This document shows, piece after piece, positions 39,974-51,286 of a DNA stretch of 53,781 bases. Each line of letters begins with the position of its first letter. The first letter of the stretch is position 1. The notes beneath the pieces were generated by a model, which saw only the letters and a program-made list of their open reading frames with translations, had not been told where the DNA came from and did no database searches. Position numbers and translations under genes: made by a program. The DNA is from Bacteroidales bacterium (lineage in GTDB: Bacteria > Bacteroidota > Bacteroidia > Bacteroidales > UBA932): NCBI GenBank assembly GCA_017554335.1, contig JAFZIO010000075.1, forward strand, positions 1 to 53,781, given 5' to 3'.

Positions 39974-41338
39974 CTACTTAAAAAGTGTTTTGACCAGTTC
40001 CGGAACGTCGGCAACTTTCACCACACGGATACCGGCAGGAGTCTTGGAATCCAGTGCGCTGTAGGAGCTTACGAAGATGCGTTTGAAGCCGAGTCGGGCG
40101 GCCTCCCCGATGCGGCGGTCGGTCTGGCCGACGGGGCGGATCTCCCCGCTCAGGCCGACTTCCCCGGCGAAGCAGCAATCGCCCGGAAGGGCATAGTCGA
40201 AGTTGGACGACAGCACTGCCGCAATGACCGCCAGGTCGCAGGCCGGGTCGTTCACCTTGAGTCCGCCGGCCATGTTCAGGAAGACGTCCTTCGCGCTCAG
40301 GTGGAAGCCGGCGCGCTTCTCCAGCACCGCCAGCAGCATATTGAGGCGACGGCCGTCGAACCCTGTAGCCGAACGCTGTGCCGTACCGTAGGCGGCCGAC
40401 GACACCAGGGCCTGCACTTCGAAGAGCAGGGGGCGGGTGCCGTCCAGCATGGCGGCAATGGCCGTGCCGCTCAGCCCCTCTTCATGCATGGGGATGAGCA
40501 TTTCGGAAGGATTGTCCACCTCCCTCAGGCCCGTCCCGGTCATCTCGAATACCGCCAGTTCGGAGGTGCTGCCGAATCGGTTCTTGATGCTCCGCAGGAT
40601 GCGGTAGGAGCCGCGGTTCTCCCCTTCGAACTGCAGTACGACGTCTACTATATGCTCAAGTATTTTGGGTCCGGCGATATAGCCGTCCTTGGTAATATGG
40701 CCGATCAGAATCACAGGCACGCCGCTCTCCTTGGCGAAGCGCAGCAGGGCCGCCGCCACCTCCTTGATCTGGCTGACGGAGCCGGGAGTGGACTCGACGG
40801 AATCGGTGAACATAGTCTGCACGGAGTCCACAATCATGAGGTCCGGCTGTATGGCTCGGGCCTGCTCCAGAATGTCCTCTATGCGGGTTTCGCAGAAGAT
40901 AAGGCACTCGTCGGCCGCATCCCCGGCAAGCCGTTCCGCGCGCATCTTAACCTGCTTCTCGCTCTCCTCGCCCGTGACGTATAGCGTGCGCAGCGACGGG
41001 CAGCCGAGGGGTATCTGCAGGCTGAGCGTGGACTTCCCTATTCCGGGCTCGCCTCCGATCAGTATCAGCGACCCGGGCACCATACCGCCGCCGAGCAGGC
41101 GGTCGAGTTCCTTCATGCCGAGGCTGATGCGAGCCTCAGCCGAATAATCTATCTCCTTGAGCCTCCGGGGCTTGCGGTCGTCGGTACGGGCCTTGGAAGG
41201 GGCCGCGGACTTCTTGGACTCCGAAGGAGCCTCAACCATGGTGTTCCACTCGCCGCACGCCGGGCAGCGCCCCATCCATTTGGGACTTTCGTTACCGCAG
41301 TTCGTACAGAACCAGACTGTTTTGCTCTTACTCGCCAT
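39974..41338 (-). CDS. radA: DNA repair protein RadA
   Basis: RecA-like branch-migration helicase used in recombination. About 454 aa from the Met at 41338 (MASKSKTVWFCTNCG); earlier in-frame codons lie inside the NlpC gene and lack similarity. N-terminal C4 zinc finger (CTNCG...CPACG), Walker A GGEPGIGKSTLS, the RadA hallmark IKNRFGS, and a C-terminal Lon-like domain. It overlaps the NlpC/P60 gene by 11 bases and is the last gene of the TIR-PEGA-RyR-NlpC-radA run. Its presence there may only reflect chromosomal order. Confidence 0.94.
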   Translation of the reverse strand: MASKSKTVWFCTNCGNESPKWMGRCPACGEWNTMVEAPSESKKSAAPSKARTDDRKPRRLKEIDYSAEARISLGMKELDRLLGGGMVPGSLILIGGEPGIGKSTLSLQIPLGCPSLRTLYVTGEESEKQVKMRAERLAGDAADECLIFCETRIEDILEQARAIQPDLMIVDSVQTMFTDSVESTPGSVSQIKEVAAALLRFAKESGVPVILIGHITKDGYIAGPKILEHIVDVVLQFEGENRGSYRILRSIKNRFGSTSELAVFEMTGTGLREVDNPSEMLIPMHEEGLSGTAIAAMLDGTRPLLFEVQALVSSAAYGTAQRSATGFDGRRLNMLLAVLEKRAGFHLSAKDVFLNMAGGLKVNDPACDLAVIAAVLSSNFDYALPGDCCFAGEVGLSGEIRPVGQTDRRIGEAARLGFKRIFVSSYSALDSKTPAGIRVVKVADVPELVKTLFK

Positions 41339-42212
41339 CTTGCTTGAAATAGTATGGACTGCGAAGGACGGAAATTGCGCCCTTGCCGTTATCGATATTG
41401 CCGAGAATGCGTGTGGCAGCCACCACTTCCCTCTCATATTCATCCAGCCGCACCACATAAACCAGCTGGGAAGCATGGACCATACGCCCGTCTCCTATAT
41501 AAATGCCCACATGGGTAACTTTGAGAGGCTTTTTGGAGCCGAAGAACAGCAGGTCGCCGCGCTCGTATCGGCCGTCTGTGACCGGCACGCCGCATCTCTG
41601 CTGCTGGCTGGCGTTGCGCGGCAGCAGTATTCCGTTCATGAAAAAGCAGAACTTGACCAGGCCGCTGCAGTCGAAATACTTTATCGTGTTGCCTCCCCAC
41701 ATGTACGGGGTGCCGGCGAAGCTGCAGGCAAGGCCGCTTATCTCACGGGCGAGGTTATTCCCGCTGCGGGTTTCAGCCCAAAGGCGGAAGTCCATGAGTT
41801 CGTGGGAGAGCACCCAGCCGCTGCGTCCGTCGGGCAGAAGTACCCTGGTCCATCCGCCGCTGCTCTTGCCCGTCTGCCGGAGTATGTTGCCCATAGTGAT
41901 GACGGAAATCGGCTCCGACGTCTCCGACGGGGCTTCCCTCACCCGGGAAAATTCGGCCACGCAAATCCACTTCGGAGCCGCCAGATAAGTATCTTTTTCC
42001 GAATCGGAGAGACGCGTGATGGCTTTTTCCGTTACCCAGCCCGTATAATCTTCGGCGGTCACTTTTACCCAGTAACGGTTGCTTTCCGCCGTCTCTACAA
42101 GTGCTCCCATCATGAGTTGGTTGTCCAGCGGGGCCTCGTAATCGGGTCCCGAACGCATGAAGGCCGAGGAAAGGCTCACTACGGCCCAGCTCAAAAGGGT
42201 GGCTAGCAGCAT
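41328..42212 (-). CDS. NlpC/P60 (C40) cell-wall peptidase with SH3 domains
   Basis: 294 aa with a signal peptide (VVSLSSA). Two bacterial SH3-like segments (about 25-70 and 80-140, YWVKVTAEDYTGWVTE, GWTRVLLPDGRSGWV) precede the NlpC/P60 domain (about 150-290). Catalytic Cys is in KYFDCSGLVKF and His in VTHVGIYIGDG. It cleaves peptidoglycan stem peptides (gamma-D-Glu-Dap type in the family). The start overlaps the RyR-channel stop by 10 bases and its stop overlaps radA, so it is tightly coupled to both. Confidence 0.9.
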   Translation of the reverse strand: MLLATLLSWAVVSLSSAFMRSGPDYEAPLDNQLMMGALVETAESNRYWVKVTAEDYTGWVTEKAITRLSDSEKDTYLAAPKWICVAEFSRVREAPSETSEPISVITMGNILRQTGKSSGGWTRVLLPDGRSGWVLSHELMDFRLWAETRSGNNLAREISGLACSFAGTPYMWGGNTIKYFDCSGLVKFCFFMNGILLPRNASQQQRCGVPVTDGRYERGDLLFFGSKKPLKVTHVGIYIGDGRMVHASQLVYVVRLDEYEREVVAATRILGNIDNGKGAISVLRSPYYFKQDGE

Positions 42213-44176
42213 TCTATGTGATTTATTGAGTCTACCATGTTGTAGTCGTAAACAACGACTCCGGGGTCAATTTCTTCCATACGCTCCCATGAGCAGATGT
42301 CCAGGTGGGCCATCTTCTCGCGCTTCAGCTTGCCCTTGCGTTCAGGGTCAACGGAGCCCGATTCCAGCACCCACTTCTGCTCCGCGTCCGTCAGGGCACG
42401 GAACTGCATGAGCAGCTGCTCGGTGTTCCAGCGGTTATGCTCCGTCCACGCCAGGGCGTCACGCATATCCTCCGGGATATTGCCGTCCCGAGACGCGGCG
42501 CTGCGGAGTTTAGTCCATATGTTGCTGGCATTGTAGATGTTGGACCACATGTTCGCAGAATCGGACTTGGAGGCAAGTATCTCAAGCGATGTCTTGCCGG
42601 GATCCTTCTCCAGAGAGCCGGCCGCTTTGAGCAGAACGTCAACCAGCGACAGGTCGAAGCTCTCGGCCCCCATACCGAAGGGACGCAGCTTGCGGTAAGG
42701 CGAGACGCTCACCGTGGTACCGGTAGCCAGCGCATCCACAACGGAGCCGCGTTCCGGCTGATACACAAGTATTTGAACCGCCGAGTCACATACCTCCCGG
42801 GGGAGAGCCATGGCGGCGGCAACGGAGGCGTCGGGGTCCTGAAGGCACACTGCCACAGTGAGCCTGGCATTTTCGTCAGATGCGACGTCCCTGAGGTAAG
42901 ATCGCACCTCCGGGCTATCCGTGCTGCCCTTTATAAACTCCCATTCGATGTCCATAAAGTCACCGCCGAGGTGCTTGGTGCCATGCGGCAGCATCCAGGG
43001 AGCCGACTGTACAGCTCCGTCGGAATAGCGCCAGCGGCAGAGCCGGAACATGCTCTCCAGGCGTGCCTGAAGGGCCTGCATCCCCTGCTCCACGTTGCTG
43101 TCGATAAAGGTGACTCGGGTACGGGCGTCAGCATGCTTGCGGAAGTTGGGATAGTGGCCGAGCAGTGCGGCCTCCAGACCCATCGCCACTCCCATGGGCG
43201 ACATGCCGGCTACCACCAGATGTACGTGGTCCTTGGAATCGGGGCCTATGCCTCTGGTGCCCTCCAGCGGGAGCCACCCGTCGGCGGAAGGGTTCAACGA
43301 CCTGTTGATGAGCACCTTGTGCGCCCACATCTCGTAACGGTTGAAGGGGAAGAACGCCAGCTTGCCGCCTATCTTGCGGCCGATGTCGGCAAACTGGAAG
43401 ACGGCGAATGCGCTGCGTTCCTCGAACATTACGTAACAGGGGATGCGTTTGGACGGCTCGGCTTCGGGAAGCATAGCGGCAATCTCCTGCACGCACTTCA
43501 TCAGCTCCGTATCTCCTCCGGCATCGCCGAAAATATGGATTTCCTGCGCCTTGTCCACCATCATCCGCTTTATGCCTTCCGGAGAAGCCATGTCGCCGTT
43601 AAGCACTATAACGCGGCGGCGCTGCCTGCTGTCCAGCACGGCTGCGAGCCTGGAGTAGGCGTCCTGCACGCTCCCGGACGTGAGTATCAGGAAATAGCAG
43701 GATGCATACCTGCCGTCGAGCATCTGCTTGAGCAGATCGGGGACGGTGTGGTCGAAGCCGAAGAACGCAATATGGTCCTTAAGCTTGTAGTCCGAAGTGC
43801 CGTCTTTGTAATCCTGGGATACGCTGGCGAAGAAATTGGTAAAAATGGACGTAAAGAGAGCCACAAGGGCGATACCCAGCACGGTATTTATCCAGCCCGC
43901 CCCCCGGGGAATAACATCTACACCGCCGGTAGTGAAAAGGTGGTAGAACGCTATGCCGAACAAGTTCTTGTCTTTAAGGTCCAAGCGGAGGCTGCTAAGC
44001 GTGTCCAGATCGGTCTGGCCTATGGCAAGCAGCAAAGCCAGAACTGCGGTGAACAGCAGCCACATCAGCACCAGGAAAGAGACCGGCACAAGGAGCTGCA
44101 CCCAGCCGCCGCGGGAAAGGGAGCGCTGGATGGCAAGCTTGAGGCCGGACATCCTGGTAATATACGAAGGTCTCAT
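42203..44176 (-). CDS. Two-TM channel-like protein with TrkA-N folds and RyR domain
   Basis: 657 aa inner-membrane protein. TM1 is at about 27-53 and TM2 at about 96-119, with a possible pore loop between (FYHLFTTGGVDVIP). The cytosolic part contains two Rossmann/RCK-like units, starting near 136 (HIAFFGFDHTVPDLLKQML) and about 330 (VHLVVAGMSPMGVAMGLEA), the layout of CASTOR/POLLUX-type channels. The C-terminus (about 565-655) has the RyR-domain pattern: AWTEHNRWNTEQLL, KREKMAHLDICSWERM and YDYNMVDSI. Pore selectivity and ligand are unknown. It begins 2 bases after the PEGA gene, within the TIR-led operon. A non-channel NAD-binding sensor is the alternative. Confidence 0.75.
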   Translation of the reverse strand: MRPSYITRMSGLKLAIQRSLSRGGWVQLLVPVSFLVLMWLLFTAVLALLLAIGQTDLDTLSSLRLDLKDKNLFGIAFYHLFTTGGVDVIPRGAGWINTVLGIALVALFTSIFTNFFASVSQDYKDGTSDYKLKDHIAFFGFDHTVPDLLKQMLDGRYASCYFLILTSGSVQDAYSRLAAVLDSRQRRRVIVLNGDMASPEGIKRMMVDKAQEIHIFGDAGGDTELMKCVQEIAAMLPEAEPSKRIPCYVMFEERSAFAVFQFADIGRKIGGKLAFFPFNRYEMWAHKVLINRSLNPSADGWLPLEGTRGIGPDSKDHVHLVVAGMSPMGVAMGLEAALLGHYPNFRKHADARTRVTFIDSNVEQGMQALQARLESMFRLCRWRYSDGAVQSAPWMLPHGTKHLGGDFMDIEWEFIKGSTDSPEVRSYLRDVASDENARLTVAVCLQDPDASVAAAMALPREVCDSAVQILVYQPERGSVVDALATGTTVSVSPYRKLRPFGMGAESFDLSLVDVLLKAAGSLEKDPGKTSLEILASKSDSANMWSNIYNASNIWTKLRSAASRDGNIPEDMRDALAWTEHNRWNTEQLLMQFRALTDAEQKWVLESGSVDPERKGKLKREKMAHLDICSWERMEEIDPGVVVYDYNMVDSINHIECC

Positions 44177-44178
44177 AA

Positions 44179-46482
44179 TCAGAATACCCTAAGTATGTTC
44201 TGGCCGCGACAATTACCTCCGCCCAGGGTAAAACCGGCAGTCACGACAAACTGCAGGGGCTGGGAATAAGGTTCGATGTGATATGCACCGTCAACACCTG
44301 TAGCGCCGGGACGGCAGATGTTGGCCTTGCCGTCGAACAGGCCCTGCATACCGGCCTTTACATTCACGTTGAATACCTTCATACGGGAACTGACTTCCAC
44401 TCCGAAAAACACATCATGGCCGGACATATGGGTGAACGGAAGAATCTTGGTAAGGCTGGGATACCATGCATATGTAGCAAGGAAATCCACATCCACAAAA
44501 GGCAGCACGGCACCGCCCACACGGAATTCCTCGTTGATCAGCAGGATTGAGAAAGCCGGAATCAACATGGTGTCATTATAACCGGCATCGCCGGATTTCA
44601 AGTCCTCTTTGAACTTGCTTGTGGCAGGATAAGTAATATGTGAATCCGGGTCCGTCTGCATGAACAGGCCGGCCTTTACCAGGCTGGTTGTCAGGCCGGG
44701 GAAGAGTCTCATGCTCGACAGGGTTGCATCCGCCACCCTCTGGAAATCCTTGCCGAGAGCTGTTGATTGAAGGTAAGCGTTCGGCCTGATAATGAATCCG
44801 TTGGCGGTAATGAACGGACTTCCGTCCGCCCATGTGAGGATCTTCAAATTATTGGCGGACTGCTTGGAGAAGAGGAAGTTGCCCTTATAGGCAAGTTTCT
44901 TGTCGCTGCGGACCAACTCCACATGATAAGGAGTCTTGCTGAGCGGAATCAGAACCGTGGCGGGAGTCTTGACGCCCTCGGCATAAACGACTTTGGATTT
45001 TCCCGAGCCTTTGCTGATGACCACTTCGATGCTGTCCTTGTCGCAGGAGACAACCAGAGGATAAGCGTTTTCGAGCTCAAGGCGCATTTCCTCAACGCCA
45101 CCTTCGAAAGCGGGAGTCACATAACGGTCTATGGGATAATATCCGTTCTTCTCTATATGGATTTTGTGGTCGCCTTCCCTCAGCCGCAGTTGCAGAGGGG
45201 TCGTTCCGGCATATTCTCCGTCCACGTAAATCTTGCAGTATGCAGGATCAGAAGTCAGGGAATACTCGCCATAGCGCTGCATGACAGCCTTGAACTCGGT
45301 GTTCTTGTCTTCGAGTACCACAACTTCATATTCCTCGTAGTCGGTCATATGGCCGGGCTTGGCCAGGCGCAGCAGATGGGTACCGGTCTTAAGTGTAACA
45401 TCGTCCAGAGGGACGGTTCCCACTTCCTTGTTGTCTACGAATACCACGGCACCGGCAGCATTCTCTTCGTCGCTAACGGAGAGTGTACCCGTAACTGGAG
45501 TAAGCTTGAACTCAAAATGCTGGTTTCCGCCCTTGACTGCCTCTATGCTCCGCTTTTCGGGCACGAAACCCTGGGCGCCCACCCTCAGCACATACTGGCC
45601 GGGGTGCAAAGGAATGACGTTGCCGTCGTACAGGCTGTAGTAGCTGATATCCTGGTCAACGTTGAAACGCTTGACGATGCTGGGATGCAGGTTGACCTCG
45701 TTTCCGCTGATGTCCAGGGTAGGGTCAACATCGAAGTAATAGCCGTCTGCGGGCTTTATATCCACGGAAATGGTGGCGAAGAGGGGCTTCAGGTTAAACT
45801 CGAACACGGCGCCGTCCTGGTTCTTCTGGTCAATAACCACAGTGGTGTCCTTGCGCTCGTAACCGCTCTTGTCTATACGGATACGGTGCTTGCCCTCGCC
45901 CAGGACGAAATCCTCCGAAAGCATGCCCTGGTTGCTGTCAATAGTAATCATGGCACGCTCCGGCCTGGTAAGTATGCGGACGGGGCAGTTGATGTCCAGG
46001 CGCTTCTCCTGGCTCACAAAGATATACGCCGTACGCTCCTTGCCCATGGACACCTCTATGATGCCTTTCTTGGGTGCGGCCTCCTTGTTGGGGAGCACCT
46101 CGATGAAGAGCACGTCGTCTTCTTTCCACGTCTCGCACCATGCGGGGCAGGAAGTGACCTCCCATGCCTTGCCGGCCGTAACATAGATGCTGTCTACCTG
46201 GCCAATGCCGGGGGCGAAAACAGACTCCTTAGAGAGGTTAAGATCGGACAGTTTCTGCTTGGAAGCCTGGCACTGGCTCTTCAGCCGGTTGGCCTTGGCT
46301 ATCTGGTCCTTGGTCACGCCGGGACTCTTCTTGGCGGCATCCAGCACCTTTATCGCCTTGTCATATTGCTTGGTAGTATAGTATTCGACAGCCTCGTTGT
46401 AGCGCATGTCGAAAGACTTCTGTGCATAGGCGGGTGCCGCTGCCAGTATAAAGACAAACAGCAGGAGAATCAGTTTCTTCAT
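44179..46482 (-). CDS. PEGA/BACON-domain envelope protein with possible C-terminal barrel
   Basis: 767 aa, signal peptide ending AYAQ (about residue 21). A TPR-like helical segment (24-80) is followed by a BACON-like domain (about 85-160, KAWEVTSCPAWCETW) and a series of PEGA-type repeats, clearest at about 405-450 (SDPAYCKIYVDGEYAGTTPL) with related units near 170 and 330. A C-terminal part (about 590-767) is rich in alternating strands and ends in Phe, suggesting an outer-membrane barrel. It would lie in the periplasm/outer membrane. Its ATG overlaps the TIR gene stop by 4 bases (ATGA). Function unknown; PEGA domains are thought to bind cell-wall or surface polymers. Confidence 0.75.
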   Translation of the reverse strand: MKKLILLLFVFILAAAPAYAQKSFDMRYNEAVEYYTTKQYDKAIKVLDAAKKSPGVTKDQIAKANRLKSQCQASKQKLSDLNLSKESVFAPGIGQVDSIYVTAGKAWEVTSCPAWCETWKEDDVLFIEVLPNKEAAPKKGIIEVSMGKERTAYIFVSQEKRLDINCPVRILTRPERAMITIDSNQGMLSEDFVLGEGKHRIRIDKSGYERKDTTVVIDQKNQDGAVFEFNLKPLFATISVDIKPADGYYFDVDPTLDISGNEVNLHPSIVKRFNVDQDISYYSLYDGNVIPLHPGQYVLRVGAQGFVPEKRSIEAVKGGNQHFEFKLTPVTGTLSVSDEENAAGAVVFVDNKEVGTVPLDDVTLKTGTHLLRLAKPGHMTDYEEYEVVVLEDKNTEFKAVMQRYGEYSLTSDPAYCKIYVDGEYAGTTPLQLRLREGDHKIHIEKNGYYPIDRYVTPAFEGGVEEMRLELENAYPLVVSCDKDSIEVVISKGSGKSKVVYAEGVKTPATVLIPLSKTPYHVELVRSDKKLAYKGNFLFSKQSANNLKILTWADGSPFITANGFIIRPNAYLQSTALGKDFQRVADATLSSMRLFPGLTTSLVKAGLFMQTDPDSHITYPATSKFKEDLKSGDAGYNDTMLIPAFSILLINEEFRVGGAVLPFVDVDFLATYAWYPSLTKILPFTHMSGHDVFFGVEVSSRMKVFNVNVKAGMQGLFDGKANICRPGATGVDGAYHIEPYSQPLQFVVTAGFTLGGGNCRGQNILRVF

Positions 46483-47435
46483 TTGGATAGTAGTCTGCTT
46501 TTAATGTATTCCAATTCGTTATTGGGCTTAATCGAAAGTGCGTGGTCAATGCAGTCCAGCGTATTCTGGGCCTCGGACTTACTGTTGGTGATTTTGTACA
46601 AATCCCATGAGTCAAGGGCATACTGGGTCCACGCAAGGTGCATGGAGTCCAGCTTGGAGTCTATCTTCTCATACAAATCATCATTGCTGCGGCTGAACAA
46701 GCCTATATGCTCGTCAAGCGCATGAATTGCCCGTATGCTGTCCGAGCGCTCGAGCGCAGCTTCCGCAGCATGAAGAGTAGCTATCTGCTCGGAAGTGGTC
46801 TCTATGGTGTTATCAGCCCTGCTCATCCTGCCCGCTTCACTGATAAGCGAATCGGCCTCATACAGGCACTGTTCGTAACGCTGGCGGTCAAGGAGGGCCT
46901 CAGCTTTACGGGCATCGGCGTTCCTGTTGTCGATAACCACCTTGGCCACACCTGCCGCGGCAGCAATCACGATGGGAGCCAGCAGCCAGAGGTACCACTT
47001 CCTGCGCACCTTGCGGCCGGCGATGGTCCCGCTGTCCGGGTTGTCAAGGGCCTTGCGCACCTCCGCCGGCAGATCGGTAACGGGGCAGTTCTTGCTGTAC
47101 AGCCAGTTCACGTTGCCCAGCAGGAACTCCAGGTCGGAGGGCATGGGGCAGTCGTCGATAAGGTATGGCAGTATGCAGCCGCTGCGTTTATGGTTGAACG
47201 CATAGAGTATCTCCGCCTTGGTAAACTTGGACTTGTATGCATTCTCGCTGGCGACCAGCAGGAATACCGTAGCCGAATCTATCGTACGTGCAAGCACCTC
47301 GGGGAAATTGGCCCCTGCGGCTATACCTTCCTTGTCTATGAAAAAACTTATTCCCGCCTGCAAAAGCGCATCACAAATGGCCTCTGCCATCTTCGTATCC
47401 CTACGGGAATAACTGATAAAAACGTCGTACTGCAT
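46479..47435 (-). CDS. TIR-domain membrane protein
   Basis: 318 aa. The start is taken at MQYDVFISYSRRD (47435), because the earlier in-frame ATG (47453) lies upstream of the promoter box. TIR domain at 1-135: DVFISYSRRD, FIDKEGIAAGANF, FLLVASENAY and E75 in SKFTKAEILYAF, which aligns with the catalytic Glu of NAD-cleaving TIR domains. One transmembrane helix at about 146-166 (WLLAPIVIAAAAGVAKVV) follows an Arg/Lys-rich stretch. The rest is helical (TPR/coiled-coil-like) and presumably periplasmic. It is first in the operon TIR-PEGA-RyR-NlpC-radA. Whether it is an NADase or a scaffold cannot be told. Confidence 0.85.
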   Translation of the reverse strand: MQYDVFISYSRRDTKMAEAICDALLQAGISFFIDKEGIAAGANFPEVLARTIDSATVFLLVASENAYKSKFTKAEILYAFNHKRSGCILPYLIDDCPMPSDLEFLLGNVNWLYSKNCPVTDLPAEVRKALDNPDSGTIAGRKVRRKWYLWLLAPIVIAAAAGVAKVVIDNRNADARKAEALLDRQRYEQCLYEADSLISEAGRMSRADNTIETTSEQIATLHAAEAALERSDSIRAIHALDEHIGLFSRSNDDLYEKIDSKLDSMHLAWTQYALDSWDLYKITNSKSEAQNTLDCIDHALSIKPNNELEYIKSRLLSK

Positions 47436-47441
47436 ATTTCG

Positions 47442-47449
47442 CAAATATA
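47442..47449 (-). promoter_or_regulatory. -7 box TATATTTG for the TIR operon
   Basis: Exact TAnnTTTG on the minus strand, 6 bases before the ATG at 47435. It excludes the upstream ATG as a start and predicts a very short or absent leader. Divergent from rsmE copy 1, whose weaker CATATTTG box lies at 47471-47478. Confidence 0.55.
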
Positions 47450-47486
47450 GCATTTTTACTCTAAAATTCCCATATTTGCAGACGGT

Positions 47487-48266
47487 ATGGAACTATTCTA
47501 CAGTTGCGATATAGAAGACGGGATGCTGAGGCTGGACGCCGAAGAATCCGGGCACTGCGTGAGGGTGCTTAGGCACCGGGCAGGAGATGAGATTTCCGTC
47601 ATCGACGGGCGCGGCACGCTGCTGCGATGCGTGCTCACGGATGCCGACCCCAAAGGCGCCACGGCGCAAATAGTCGAACGCGTGAGCGGCTTCGGAAGCC
47701 ACCCCTACCGCCTCACCATGGCGGTCTGCCCCACCAAGAACATCGACCGTTACGAATGGTTTGCCGAAAAGGCCACCGAGATAGGCCTGGACGTGCTCGC
47801 GCCGGTCATAGGCGACCGCTCCGAGCGCAAGGTCCTCAAGACCGAGAGACTCGAACGACTGGTGAAATCCGCCGCCAAGCAGTCCCTCAAAGGGGCCATC
47901 CCGGAGGTTCGCGAGCCCGTGAGCGTGAAGGAGTTTATCGCCTCCGTTCCGGAGGACGCCGTGAAGATGATCTGCTACTGCTTCGAGGGAGAGAAGAAGT
48001 CTGTACAGGAGGCGCTGTCCGAGGCTGCCGGCAGTGGCCTCCTGCCTCATGTTCGTAAGGGCCAAAATCGGCAGGAGATCCCTGCCGCGCAGCCCTGCAC
48101 CTCCCCTGACATCTATATTTTAATCGGGCCGGAAGGCGATTTTTCGCCGGAGGAAGCAGCCCTGGCGCTTGCCCGCGGCTGGATCCCCGTCACCCTAGGC
48201 AACAGCCGTCTCCGCACAGAAACCGCCGCCCTTGTCGCCGCCACGATGGTGTACTCGGAGTTTTAA
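47487..48266 (+). CDS. rsmE: 16S rRNA m3U1498 methyltransferase RsmE, copy 1
   Basis: SPOUT-family methyltransferase modifying U1498 of 16S rRNA. 259 aa: N-terminal PUA-like domain (1-75) and a C-terminal trefoil-knot domain with LIGPEGDFSPEEAALA and LGNSRLRTETAALVA. Second complete copy at 50507-51286; the proteins differ at only about 11 of 259 positions. DNA similarity begins at the start codon and ends at the stop, so the flanks were not duplicated. The normal genome state is one copy. Confidence 0.94.
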   Translation: MELFYSCDIEDGMLRLDAEESGHCVRVLRHRAGDEISVIDGRGTLLRCVLTDADPKGATAQIVERVSGFGSHPYRLTMAVCPTKNIDRYEWFAEKATEIGLDVLAPVIGDRSERKVLKTERLERLVKSAAKQSLKGAIPEVREPVSVKEFIASVPEDAVKMICYCFEGEKKSVQEALSEAAGSGLLPHVRKGQNRQEIPAAQPCTSPDIYILIGPEGDFSPEEAALALARGWIPVTLGNSRLRTETAALVAATMVYSEF

Positions 48267-50506: not shown

Positions 50507-51286
50507 ATGGAACTATTCTACAGTTGCGATATAGAAGACGGGGTGCTGAGGCTGGATGCCGAGGAGTCCGGGCACTGCGTGAGGGTGCTGAGGCACCGGG
50601 CAGGAGATGAAATTTGCGTCATCGACGGATGCGGGACGCTGCTGCGATGCGTGCTCACGGATGCCGACCCCAAAGGCGCTACCGCGCAGATCATCGGGCG
50701 CGAGAGCGGCTTCGGAAGCCACCCCTACCGCCTTACCATGGCGGTCTGCCCCACCAAGAACATCGACCGCTACGAATGGTTTGCCGAAAAGGCCACCGAG
50801 ATAGGTCTGGACGTGCTCGCGCCGGTCATAGGCGACCGCTCCGAGCGCAAGGTCCTCAAGACCGAACGCCTCGAGCGGCTCGTAAAATCCGCCGCCAAAC
50901 AGTCCCTCAAAGGGGCCATCCCGGAGGTCCGCGAACCCGTGAGCGTGAAGGAGTTTATCGCCTCCGTTCCGGATGATGCCGTGAAGATGATTTGCTACTG
51001 CTTCGAGGGAGAAAAGAAGTCTGTACGGGAGGCGCTGTCCGAGGCTGCCGGCAGTGGCCTCCTGCCTCATGTTCGTAAGGGCCAAAATCGGCAGGAGGTC
51101 CCTGCCGCGCAGCCCTGCGCCTCCCCTGATATTTATATCCTGATCGGGCCGGAAGGCGATTTTTCGCCAGAAGAGGCCGCCCTGGCGCTGTCCCGCGGCT
51201 GGATCCCCGTCACCCTAGGCAACAGCCGCCTCCGCACAGAAACCGCCGCCCTCGTCGCAGCCACGATGGTGTATTCGGAATTCTAA
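50507..51286 (+). CDS. rsmE: 16S rRNA m3U1498 methyltransferase RsmE, copy 2
   Basis: Full-length 259-aa duplicate of the gene at 47487, in the same direction, with the trefoil-knot motifs LIGPEGDFSPEE and LGNSRLRTETA intact. Differences from copy 1 include C37 for S, C42 for R and E48/G/E-region changes near the end of the PUA-like domain; most DNA changes are silent. Both copies look functional. The sequence upstream differs from that of copy 1, so the two probably have different expression. No clear TAnnTTTG box precedes it. Confidence 0.93.
   Translation: MELFYSCDIEDGVLRLDAEESGHCVRVLRHRAGDEICVIDGCGTLLRCVLTDADPKGATAQIIGRESGFGSHPYRLTMAVCPTKNIDRYEWFAEKATEIGLDVLAPVIGDRSERKVLKTERLERLVKSAAKQSLKGAIPEVREPVSVKEFIASVPDDAVKMICYCFEGEKKSVREALSEAAGSGLLPHVRKGQNRQEVPAAQPCASPDIYILIGPEGDFSPEEAALALSRGWIPVTLGNSRLRTETAALVAATMVYSEF

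Follow-up and report, generated by a model that had tools for sequence, protein, structure and literature searches.

A likely operon

The 53,781-nt contig JAFZIO010000075.1 from the assembly GCA_017554335.1 of a Bacteroidales bacterium (family UBA932; genome completeness 87.6%), hereinafter the window, codes on its minus strand for three adjacent proteins that are the subject of this work: a TIR-domain protein with a transmembrane (TM) helix, a PEGA-domain envelope protein and a channel-like protein whose C-terminal domain is related to the R12 domain of ryanodine receptors (RyR). A preliminary description made from the sequence alone had given the gene order TIR, PEGA, channel with spacings of −4 and +2 bases and had suggested a signaling circuit running from TIR to RyR. 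The list of open reading frames (ORFs) bears out this layout, with a 4-nt overlap between the TIR and PEGA genes and a 2-nt gap between the PEGA and channel genes, and this spacing makes it likely that the three are co-transcribed as one operon. The genes are:

46479-47435, minus strand: TIR protein, 318 aa counted from M7, with a TIR domain, one TM helix and a C-terminal domain
44179-46482, minus strand: PEGA protein, 767 aa, with a signal-peptide-like N-terminus, three PEGA stretches and the C-terminus LRVF
42203-44176, minus strand: RyR-bearing channel-like protein, 657 aa, with two TM helices, a pore loop (P-loop), an RCK region and an RyR-like domain

The TIR and PEGA proteins

The ORF of the TIR protein opens at 47453, while a start at M7 (47435) fits its relatives, such as that of locus L053, which begins MAYDVFIS; with this start, the Glu at the catalytic position is numbered E75, as previously described. 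The protein matches the Pfam model TIR_2 (expect value (E) 2.8e-20), which has no other match in the genome, and the best solved matches of its family profile are the nicotinamide adenine dinucleotide (NAD) hydrolases tir-1/SARM1 (E 3e-15). It thus combines the fold of TIR-domain NADases with a Glu that aligns with the conserved Glu of tir-1, which we take to be catalytic. All 20 TIR proteins that were aligned have this Glu; 18 of them belong to the TIR-PEGA type, and two are others near RyR genes. Judged by these sequence features, the window protein is a probable NAD-cutting signal enzyme. A search against plasmids returned one distant match. Its further features are:

47211-47213, minus strand: codon of E75
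46932-46988, minus strand: TM helix, residues 150-168, by hydropathy and charge count
46482-46931, minus strand: C-terminal domain, recognized by the profile PERI and also found behind a kinase in locus L102

The flanks of the TM helix carry a net charge of +5 on the N side and −1 on the C side, which predicts a TIR domain inside and a C-terminal domain outside, in the periplasm; the N side is the more positive in 16 of 18 TIR-PEGA proteins. The envelope protein matches Pfam PEGA over three stretches (E 5.6e-27), so this half of its earlier PEGA/BACON label holds, while Pfam has no BACON match in it. A C-terminal Phe is present in 19 of 21 related PEGA proteins and might represent the end of an outer-membrane barrel.

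The channel-like protein and its RyR/R12-like domain

The earlier label of this protein, a two-TM TrkA-N/RyR protein, fared unevenly. The two TM helices stand, but Pfam finds no significant family in the protein and neither RyR nor TrkA-N at E<=1, and the RyR domain is recovered by profile-profile comparison alone. Its parts are:

43826-44077, minus strand: pore module, with TM1 at residues 34-52, P-loop HLFTTGGVDVI at 79-89 and TM2 at 99-117
42557-43819, minus strand: RCK-type gating region, residues ~120-540, from the family profile against solved structures
42233-42463, minus strand: RyR/R12-like domain, residues ~572-648, from profile-profile comparison

The family profile matches the solved channels CASTOR (E 7e-7), BK (2e-6), 4gx5 (5e-6; a solved 'TrkA domain protein') and MthK (2e-3). 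These matches end near profile position 228, so that the make-up of an RCK-gated two-TM channel is seen in sequence for the first RCK, and a second RCK may follow it. The P-loop lacks a TVGYG-type K+ selectivity filter, and many relatives are DPGN-like here. Solved RyR chains match the C-terminal domain only, with no homology to an animal-type RyR pore or to the whole protein. The channel has a single match among phage records, MT836850. The records MT836850.1 and MT837259.1, both filed as unverified bacteriophage, each carry an RyR gene, and the first also a channel gene; they look like pieces of Bacteroidales chromosomes. The RyR channel of L125 has no match among plasmids.

Significant homology of the C-terminal domain to canonical RyR domains emerges when profiles are compared: hhalign aligned 57 channel C-termini with 31 small canonical RyR proteins at 97.7% (E 2e-12, score 76), as against scores of <=19 in 30 column-shuffled controls, and a comparison with other alignments (33 and 31 sequences) gave 90.7% and E 1.3e-6. 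The small RyR proteins themselves match the R12 domain of animal RyR (E ~1e-87) and the Bacteroides structure 3nrt. The Pfam model PF02026 matches nothing in the window genome, this domain included, and nothing in the control genomes either.

Phage relatives of this domain offer precedence for a ligand. According to the available part of a 2026 preprint (PMC13232231), phage RyR-domain proteins bind or cleave 2′ or 3′ cyclic ADP-ribose (2′/3′cADPR); the ligand residues of one such enzyme, RyDEP, are H75, W78, H100 and D117, with H75 and D117 as the catalytic dyad. Eight phage relatives were assayed, of which six bind and none cleaves according to the same part, with nanomolar affinity for 2′/3′cADPR in two (PMC13232231). 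All four ligand residues are present in the window channel and conserved in its family (57 sequences, window included):

42437-42439, minus strand: codon of H580, equivalent to RyDEP H75; kept in 55/57
42428-42430, minus strand: codon of W583, equivalent to RyDEP W78 (adenine); kept in 57/57
42305-42307, minus strand: codon of H624, equivalent to RyDEP H100 (phosphates); kept in 54/57
42245-42247, minus strand: codon of D644, equivalent to RyDEP D117; kept in 56/57

The caution attached to the earlier proposal was that nothing showed the RyR domain itself to bind cyclic ADP-ribose; bearing on it, related phage domains are reported to bind or cleave 2′/3′cADPR through residues kept here (PMC13232231, as available). 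In the accessible part of a structural study, human R12 crystals contain ADP or AMP-PCP together with dantrolene (PMC12627627).

RyDEP is described as a homodimer and animal R12 as a tandem pair (PMC13232231, same part). A small RyR gene lies <=1 kb from 17 of 48 channels and tandem RyR repeats occur in five of the 48, which suggests that the unit consists of two RyR repeats. The window channel has one repeat and the genome no other PF02026 match; therefore, pairing would here be between subunits.

Recurrent association of TIR and RyR genes

A neighborhood survey, proposed earlier as a check on the circuit, found the pairing to be recurrent at three taxonomic levels, though most of the channel relatives have no TIR gene nearby, which by the criterion set in the preliminary description speaks against the circuit. 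The family PEGA profile matched 92 of 398 genomes, in the majority over parts of its length; counted here are the 20 genomes in which the match is full-length or nearly so (E 1e-77 or better; split over two contigs in G103). A twenty-first, G340, has a partial match with an RyR gene 4 kb away and was left out. TIR genes are present in 17 of the 20, and in 14 of these 17 an RyR gene lies <=156 nt from the TIR or PEGA gene, the nearest one running in the same direction in nine and opposed in five. By comparison, the stretches read around the PEGA genes of the three genomes without TIR (G289, G312, G038) contain no RyR gene (14/17 vs 0/3, Fisher p 0.018, kinship ignored). PF02026 is present in only 23 of 198 family genomes.

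The proximity is also seen from the side of the TIR genes. Across 28 of the 30 genomes with an RyR or channel match, 19 of 37 TIR_2 matches fall <=5 kb from such a match as against 0.22 expected under uniform placement, an expectation that ignores defense islands and a count to which one genome, G041, alone supplies six TIR matches. Conversely, a TIR lies <=10 kb from 16 of 32 RyR/channel clusters. A single contig of G041 (C16, with loci L047 and L107) holds six TIR_2 matches, one of them below the cut-off, and two PF02026 matches.

At the level of the order, the channel profile matches 65 of 393 genomes, and 36 of the 40 loci read code for an RyR-like protein. By the TIR profile of this analysis, a TIR lies <=5 kb away in 17 of these 36 and <=1 kb away in 10; by Pfam TIR_2 the first count is 16, of which 15 exceed the cut-off. 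The TIR call in L136, made with our own profile, is not confirmed by TIR_2. RCK channels without an RyR domain, recovered by the same search, have a TIR nearby in none of 23 cases by either model (16/36 vs 0/23, p 7e-5, kinship ignored). This control set (24 read; L145 dropped for an RyR-like match; several on short contigs) is matched for channel type and order and not for defense-island residence, and 13 of 22 control genomes do have TIR_2, but on other contigs.

Across the phylum, PF02026 is found in 22 of 296 genomes from six genera, and 10 loci from nine genomes were read. Outside the order, all five channel-type RyR loci among those read (G802, G813, G834, G889, G1016) have a TIR nearby, four of them overlapping or at <=25 nt and one at 3.6 kb; the TIR match of G834 contains a stop. 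The locus of G896 was left unscored, being at the end of a contig. Four loci (L166-L169, family f129) from a genus of 16 RyR genomes without TIR_2 on the RyR contig show two RyR repeats in tandem in the loci read. In a quick tree of 49 full-length channels (complete, >560 aa, with RCK and RyR-like matches; some branches long), 20 are TIR-linked within 5 kb and at least nine gains or losses of linkage fall on supported branches; the clade of the window channel is TIR-linked in four of four.

Variant arrangements and module swapping

A search of genome contigs for related loci gave three relatives. The collinear order TIR-PEGA-channel is found in the window and in L031, L098 and L099, the last two agreeing with the window in these first three genes. 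Elsewhere the partners are rearranged. In L048, behind the TIR and PEGA genes come another kind of multi-TM RyR protein and an RCK-RyR half without TM helices. A multi-TM RyR protein lies upstream of the TIR gene in L090, L092 and L097 and behind the PEGA gene in L104, while a small RyR gene lies upstream in divergent (L091) or collinear (L100, L104) orientation; in L052, L054, L089, L053 and L100 an RyR gene is head-on to the PEGA gene. The multi-TM proteins, with 3-5 predicted TM helices, have the RCK/RyR half in common with the channel family (97.5%, E 6e-12, five sequences). The RyR partners are repeatedly membrane proteins, be they of the two-TM RCK or the 3-5 TM type or, as in L054, with an MscS-like gene alongside. 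Same-direction genes nearly touch in several loci (−3 nt in L125, −58 in L128, 10 in L147 and 12 in L127).

Linkages to other conflict-type genes include L034 (6097-13401), where an RyR channel is followed by an SIR2-TIR fusion and an nSTAND1-WD40 protein (Pfam), L036 (1053-8360), with the same arrangement by sequence likeness, and L106 (3840-9874), with a tandem-RyR membrane protein, a TIR protein and, after one more gene, a caspase-domain protein. On the Priestia aryabhattai plasmid NZ_CP128553.1 (L157), a cyclase gene, an RyR gene and a convergent TIR gene stand together, with a gene annotated as Pycsar effector family nearby.

The exchange of modules, typical of nucleotide-signal systems, extends to the enzyme itself. 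In L102 (4716-9742), which codes for a kinase, an FHA protein, a kinase-TM-periplasmic-domain protein and a PEGA protein, the PEGA partner is a Ser/Thr kinase with a TM helix and the same C-terminal domain as the TIR protein (profile PERI, E 1.5e-10), and the 14 kb read contain no RyR gene. FHA is a phospho-reader. The enzyme and its reader appear to be exchanged as a pair (TIR and RyR for kinase and FHA), and this co-swap, although a single case, argues that RyR would read the TIR product. In L156 (4025-9262), a PEGA-type protein stands between two genes that look kinase-like by eye, possibly another kinase variant of the sensor. The order-level PEGA search added one clear case (G415, L151); its other five loci hold distant PEGA proteins, and our TIR and RyR profiles match none of them.

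Promoter box and surroundings of the likely operon

Upstream of the TIR gene lies the promoter box given in the preliminary description, and downstream of the channel gene a fourth gene:

47442-47449, minus strand (read from 47449 to 47442): promoter -7-type box TATATTTG
41328-42212, minus strand: NlpC/P60-SH3 gene (Pfam), overlapping the channel gene by 10 nt

The core TANNTTTG occurs 26 times in the window as against 17.9 expected, a number reached by 2 of 100 shuffles, and because it is this frequent the box alone says little. At 13 of 17 TIR-PEGA loci (window counted; L097 and L103 left out), the core lies <=75 nt 5′ of the TIR gene. The corresponding figure for ORFs called mechanically, a set that includes many genes in other than first position, is 127 of 880. 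Sigma-70-like promoters and terminators within the operon are close to shuffle level. The NlpC/P60-SH3 gene is probably a host gene; among loci L031-L058 only L031 has a relative of it adjoining the channel. That locus, from an uncultured Bacteroidales with a channel 86% identical, keeps all four genes, and its promoter box is identical to TATATTTG. On the plus strand beside the TIR operon, two copies of a 259-aa gene (47487-48266 and 50507-51286; presumably rsmE-like), 93% identical over the first 300 nt and 3020 nt apart, flank two genes.

Relationship to known systems

As in Thoeris, a TIR enzyme with an intact Glu stands beside a candidate membrane effector bearing a domain of a nucleotide-binding family. 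However, the candidate reader here is an RyR/R12-like domain on an RCK channel, and the TIR enzyme is anchored in the membrane, has a domain in the periplasm and is accompanied by a PEGA protein. The NCBIfam model ThcB4 gives the window TIR 43.9 bits against a cut-off of 220, PADLOC ThsB models reach E 7e-7 at best with no cut-offs given, and the ThsA families PF18185 and PF20016 (SIR2-SLOG/TM-Macro) have no match in the genome, or in the controls. The phage PF02026 proteins such as RyDEP share the domain and the ligand residues H, W, H and D, but are described as anti-Thoeris hydrolases or sponges (PMC13232231, available part), whereas the domain here forms the tail of a channel-like protein.

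Animal ryanodine receptors likewise carry an R12-related domain on a channel, with nucleotide in the human R12 cleft; yet they differ in pore and size, and the strong R12 match belongs to the small partner proteins rather than to the window domain. With CASTOR/DMI1, BK, MthK and 4gx5 the window protein shares a two-TM pore and a first RCK region, and differs in its extra C-terminal RyR-like domain and in having TTGGVD instead of TVGYG; CASTOR is reported as a Ca2+-selective RCK channel (PMC6697748, in part). The gut Bacteroides TIR NADases, probably of the same order, have TIR domains that make cADPR or v-cADPR-x, the effects of the latter being called undefined in the part of that paper available (PMC9092222).

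A search judged from titles and the starts of abstracts, with subscription papers mostly outside it, found no published description of a bacterial TIR-RyR channel operon among the listed papers inspected. The 2015 survey of nucleotide-centered conflict systems by Burroughs et al. may already mention RyR domains, and an earlier mention of this architecture is possible.

Proposed mechanism and alternative explanations

The sequences show how the genes are ordered, which domains they encode, that residues of the active site and the pocket are conserved, and that the adjacency recurs. From this we posit, at a probability of about 0.57, that the operon specifies a trans-envelope module in which a TIR NADase of the membrane produces a signal of the cyclic-ADPR type that gates the RyR-bearing channel. 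What such a model adds by inference is that the TIR protein is active as an enzyme, which signal it makes, that this RyR domain binds the signal, that the channel is gated, and what the trigger and the benefit would be. An envelope event would be sensed by the exported PEGA protein, perhaps with an outer-membrane barrel end, together with the part of the TIR protein that lies in the periplasm. On the cytoplasmic side, the TIR domain would then turn NAD into a signal of the ADP-ribose type, with 2′ or 3′ cADPR as the likeliest candidates. The RyR/R12-like domain at the C-terminus of the two-TM/RCK channel would bind this signal and the RCK region would open the pore, so that membrane potential or ion content would change, with a probably abortive or stress-type outcome. 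Roles in ion flux and phage defense are thus proposals. The TIR-to-RyR circuit at the center of the model gains strong comparative support from the recurrent adjacency in several arrangements, the RyR-less control, and the conserved Glu and RyR pocket.

Several observations weigh against this reading. The linkage is incomplete: the 5 kb on either side are free of TIR for 29 of the 49 full-length RyR channels and for 19 of the 36 RyR loci read in the order, the TIR-PEGA genomes G351, G350 and G185 have no RyR gene in the stretch read, and 16 of the 22 phylum genomes with RyR, all of one genus, lack TIR_2 on the RyR contig (their RyR repeats are mostly in ~900-aa open frames, and three that were read show no RCK part). 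The RyR gene runs opposite to the TIR operon in G193, G134, G225, G113 and G194. The window RyR domain goes undetected by Pfam, and against the solved RyR chains 3nrt/4n05 the profile of the channel C-termini attains no better than E 0.2; the pore has no K+ filter signature, and the topology of the TIR protein is ambiguous in two relatives (L100, L101). The catalytic dyad of RyDEP is kept (H580, D644), which allows for degradation of a signal, and for human R12 binding of ADP or AMP-PCP alone was undetectable by isothermal titration calorimetry, as far as the available part of the study reports (PMC12627627). Because of the 29 channels without TIR, and with the TrkA-N and BACON labels unconfirmed by Pfam, the TIR-to-RyR circuit first suggested for this locus may be called partly supported: comparative genomics supports it well, while its biochemistry is a prediction.

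The kept dyad also underlies a different role for the domain, as an off-switch that hydrolyzes the TIR signal in the manner of RyDEP or soaks it up while the channel answers something else. The small stand-alone RyR genes near 17 of the 48 channels would suit this; yet since six of eight phage relatives bind and none cleaves (PMC13232231, available part), conserved residues need not mean cleavage, and a domain fused to a gating region and pore reads more easily as a receptor, so we consider the off-switch improbable. We give as little credence to a domain that reads another nucleotide (ATP, ADP, ADPR or a cyclic mononucleotide), for instance reporting NAD depletion or a cyclase product. This would agree with the ADP and AMP-PCP of the dantrolene crystals (PMC12627627, in part), with the Priestia plasmid, where the RyR gene begins 16 nt after an annotated adenylate/guanylate cyclase and the TIR is 1.4 kb away, and with the TIR-less half or so of RyR loci; but TIR is the most frequent partner enzyme among those looked for, and the nanomolar binding by the two phage relatives is of 2′/3′cADPR (PMC13232231, as available).

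That the adjacency reflects nothing beyond common residence in defense islands is, in our judgment, the least probable account. Several loci do contain other defense-like genes, about half of the RyR loci lack TIR, and the controls are unmatched in this regard; still, the overlapping or near-touching same-direction genes, the 0/23 of the RyR-less control and the co-swap in L102 speak against it. Compatible with the gated-channel module, and carrying appreciably more weight than the preceding accounts while short of even odds, is that the same circuit serves envelope or osmotic housekeeping rather than phage defense. A PEGA protein combined with a periplasmic domain points to envelope sensing, the version with kinase and FHA resembles general signaling, and no NCBIfam defense model exceeds its cut-off, the PADLOC matches being weak (best E 4e-10, cut-offs absent). 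On the other hand, the patchy distribution, the swapped output and effector modules, and the association at other loci with SIR2-TIR, nSTAND, DUF4062 and caspase proteins resemble conflict systems.

Implications

More tentatively than the module itself, and as a bet we would not yet place at even odds, we suggest that Bacteroidota have a two-part code of general use, by which cyclic ADP-ribose isomers made by TIR enzymes gate ion channels via RyR/R12 domains, wired in this locus to a trans-envelope sensor with swappable outputs. Such a code would be a bacterial counterpart, and perhaps the source, of the pairing of cADPR with the ryanodine receptor in animals. If true, it would give bacterial RyR domains a host-side function, provide a candidate receptor for the TIR-made cyclic ADPR isomers of Bacteroidales and a reason for the existence of phage-borne RyR-domain sponges and hydrolases, and make the old question of whether cADPR acts on RyR via R12 testable in a small bacterial channel.

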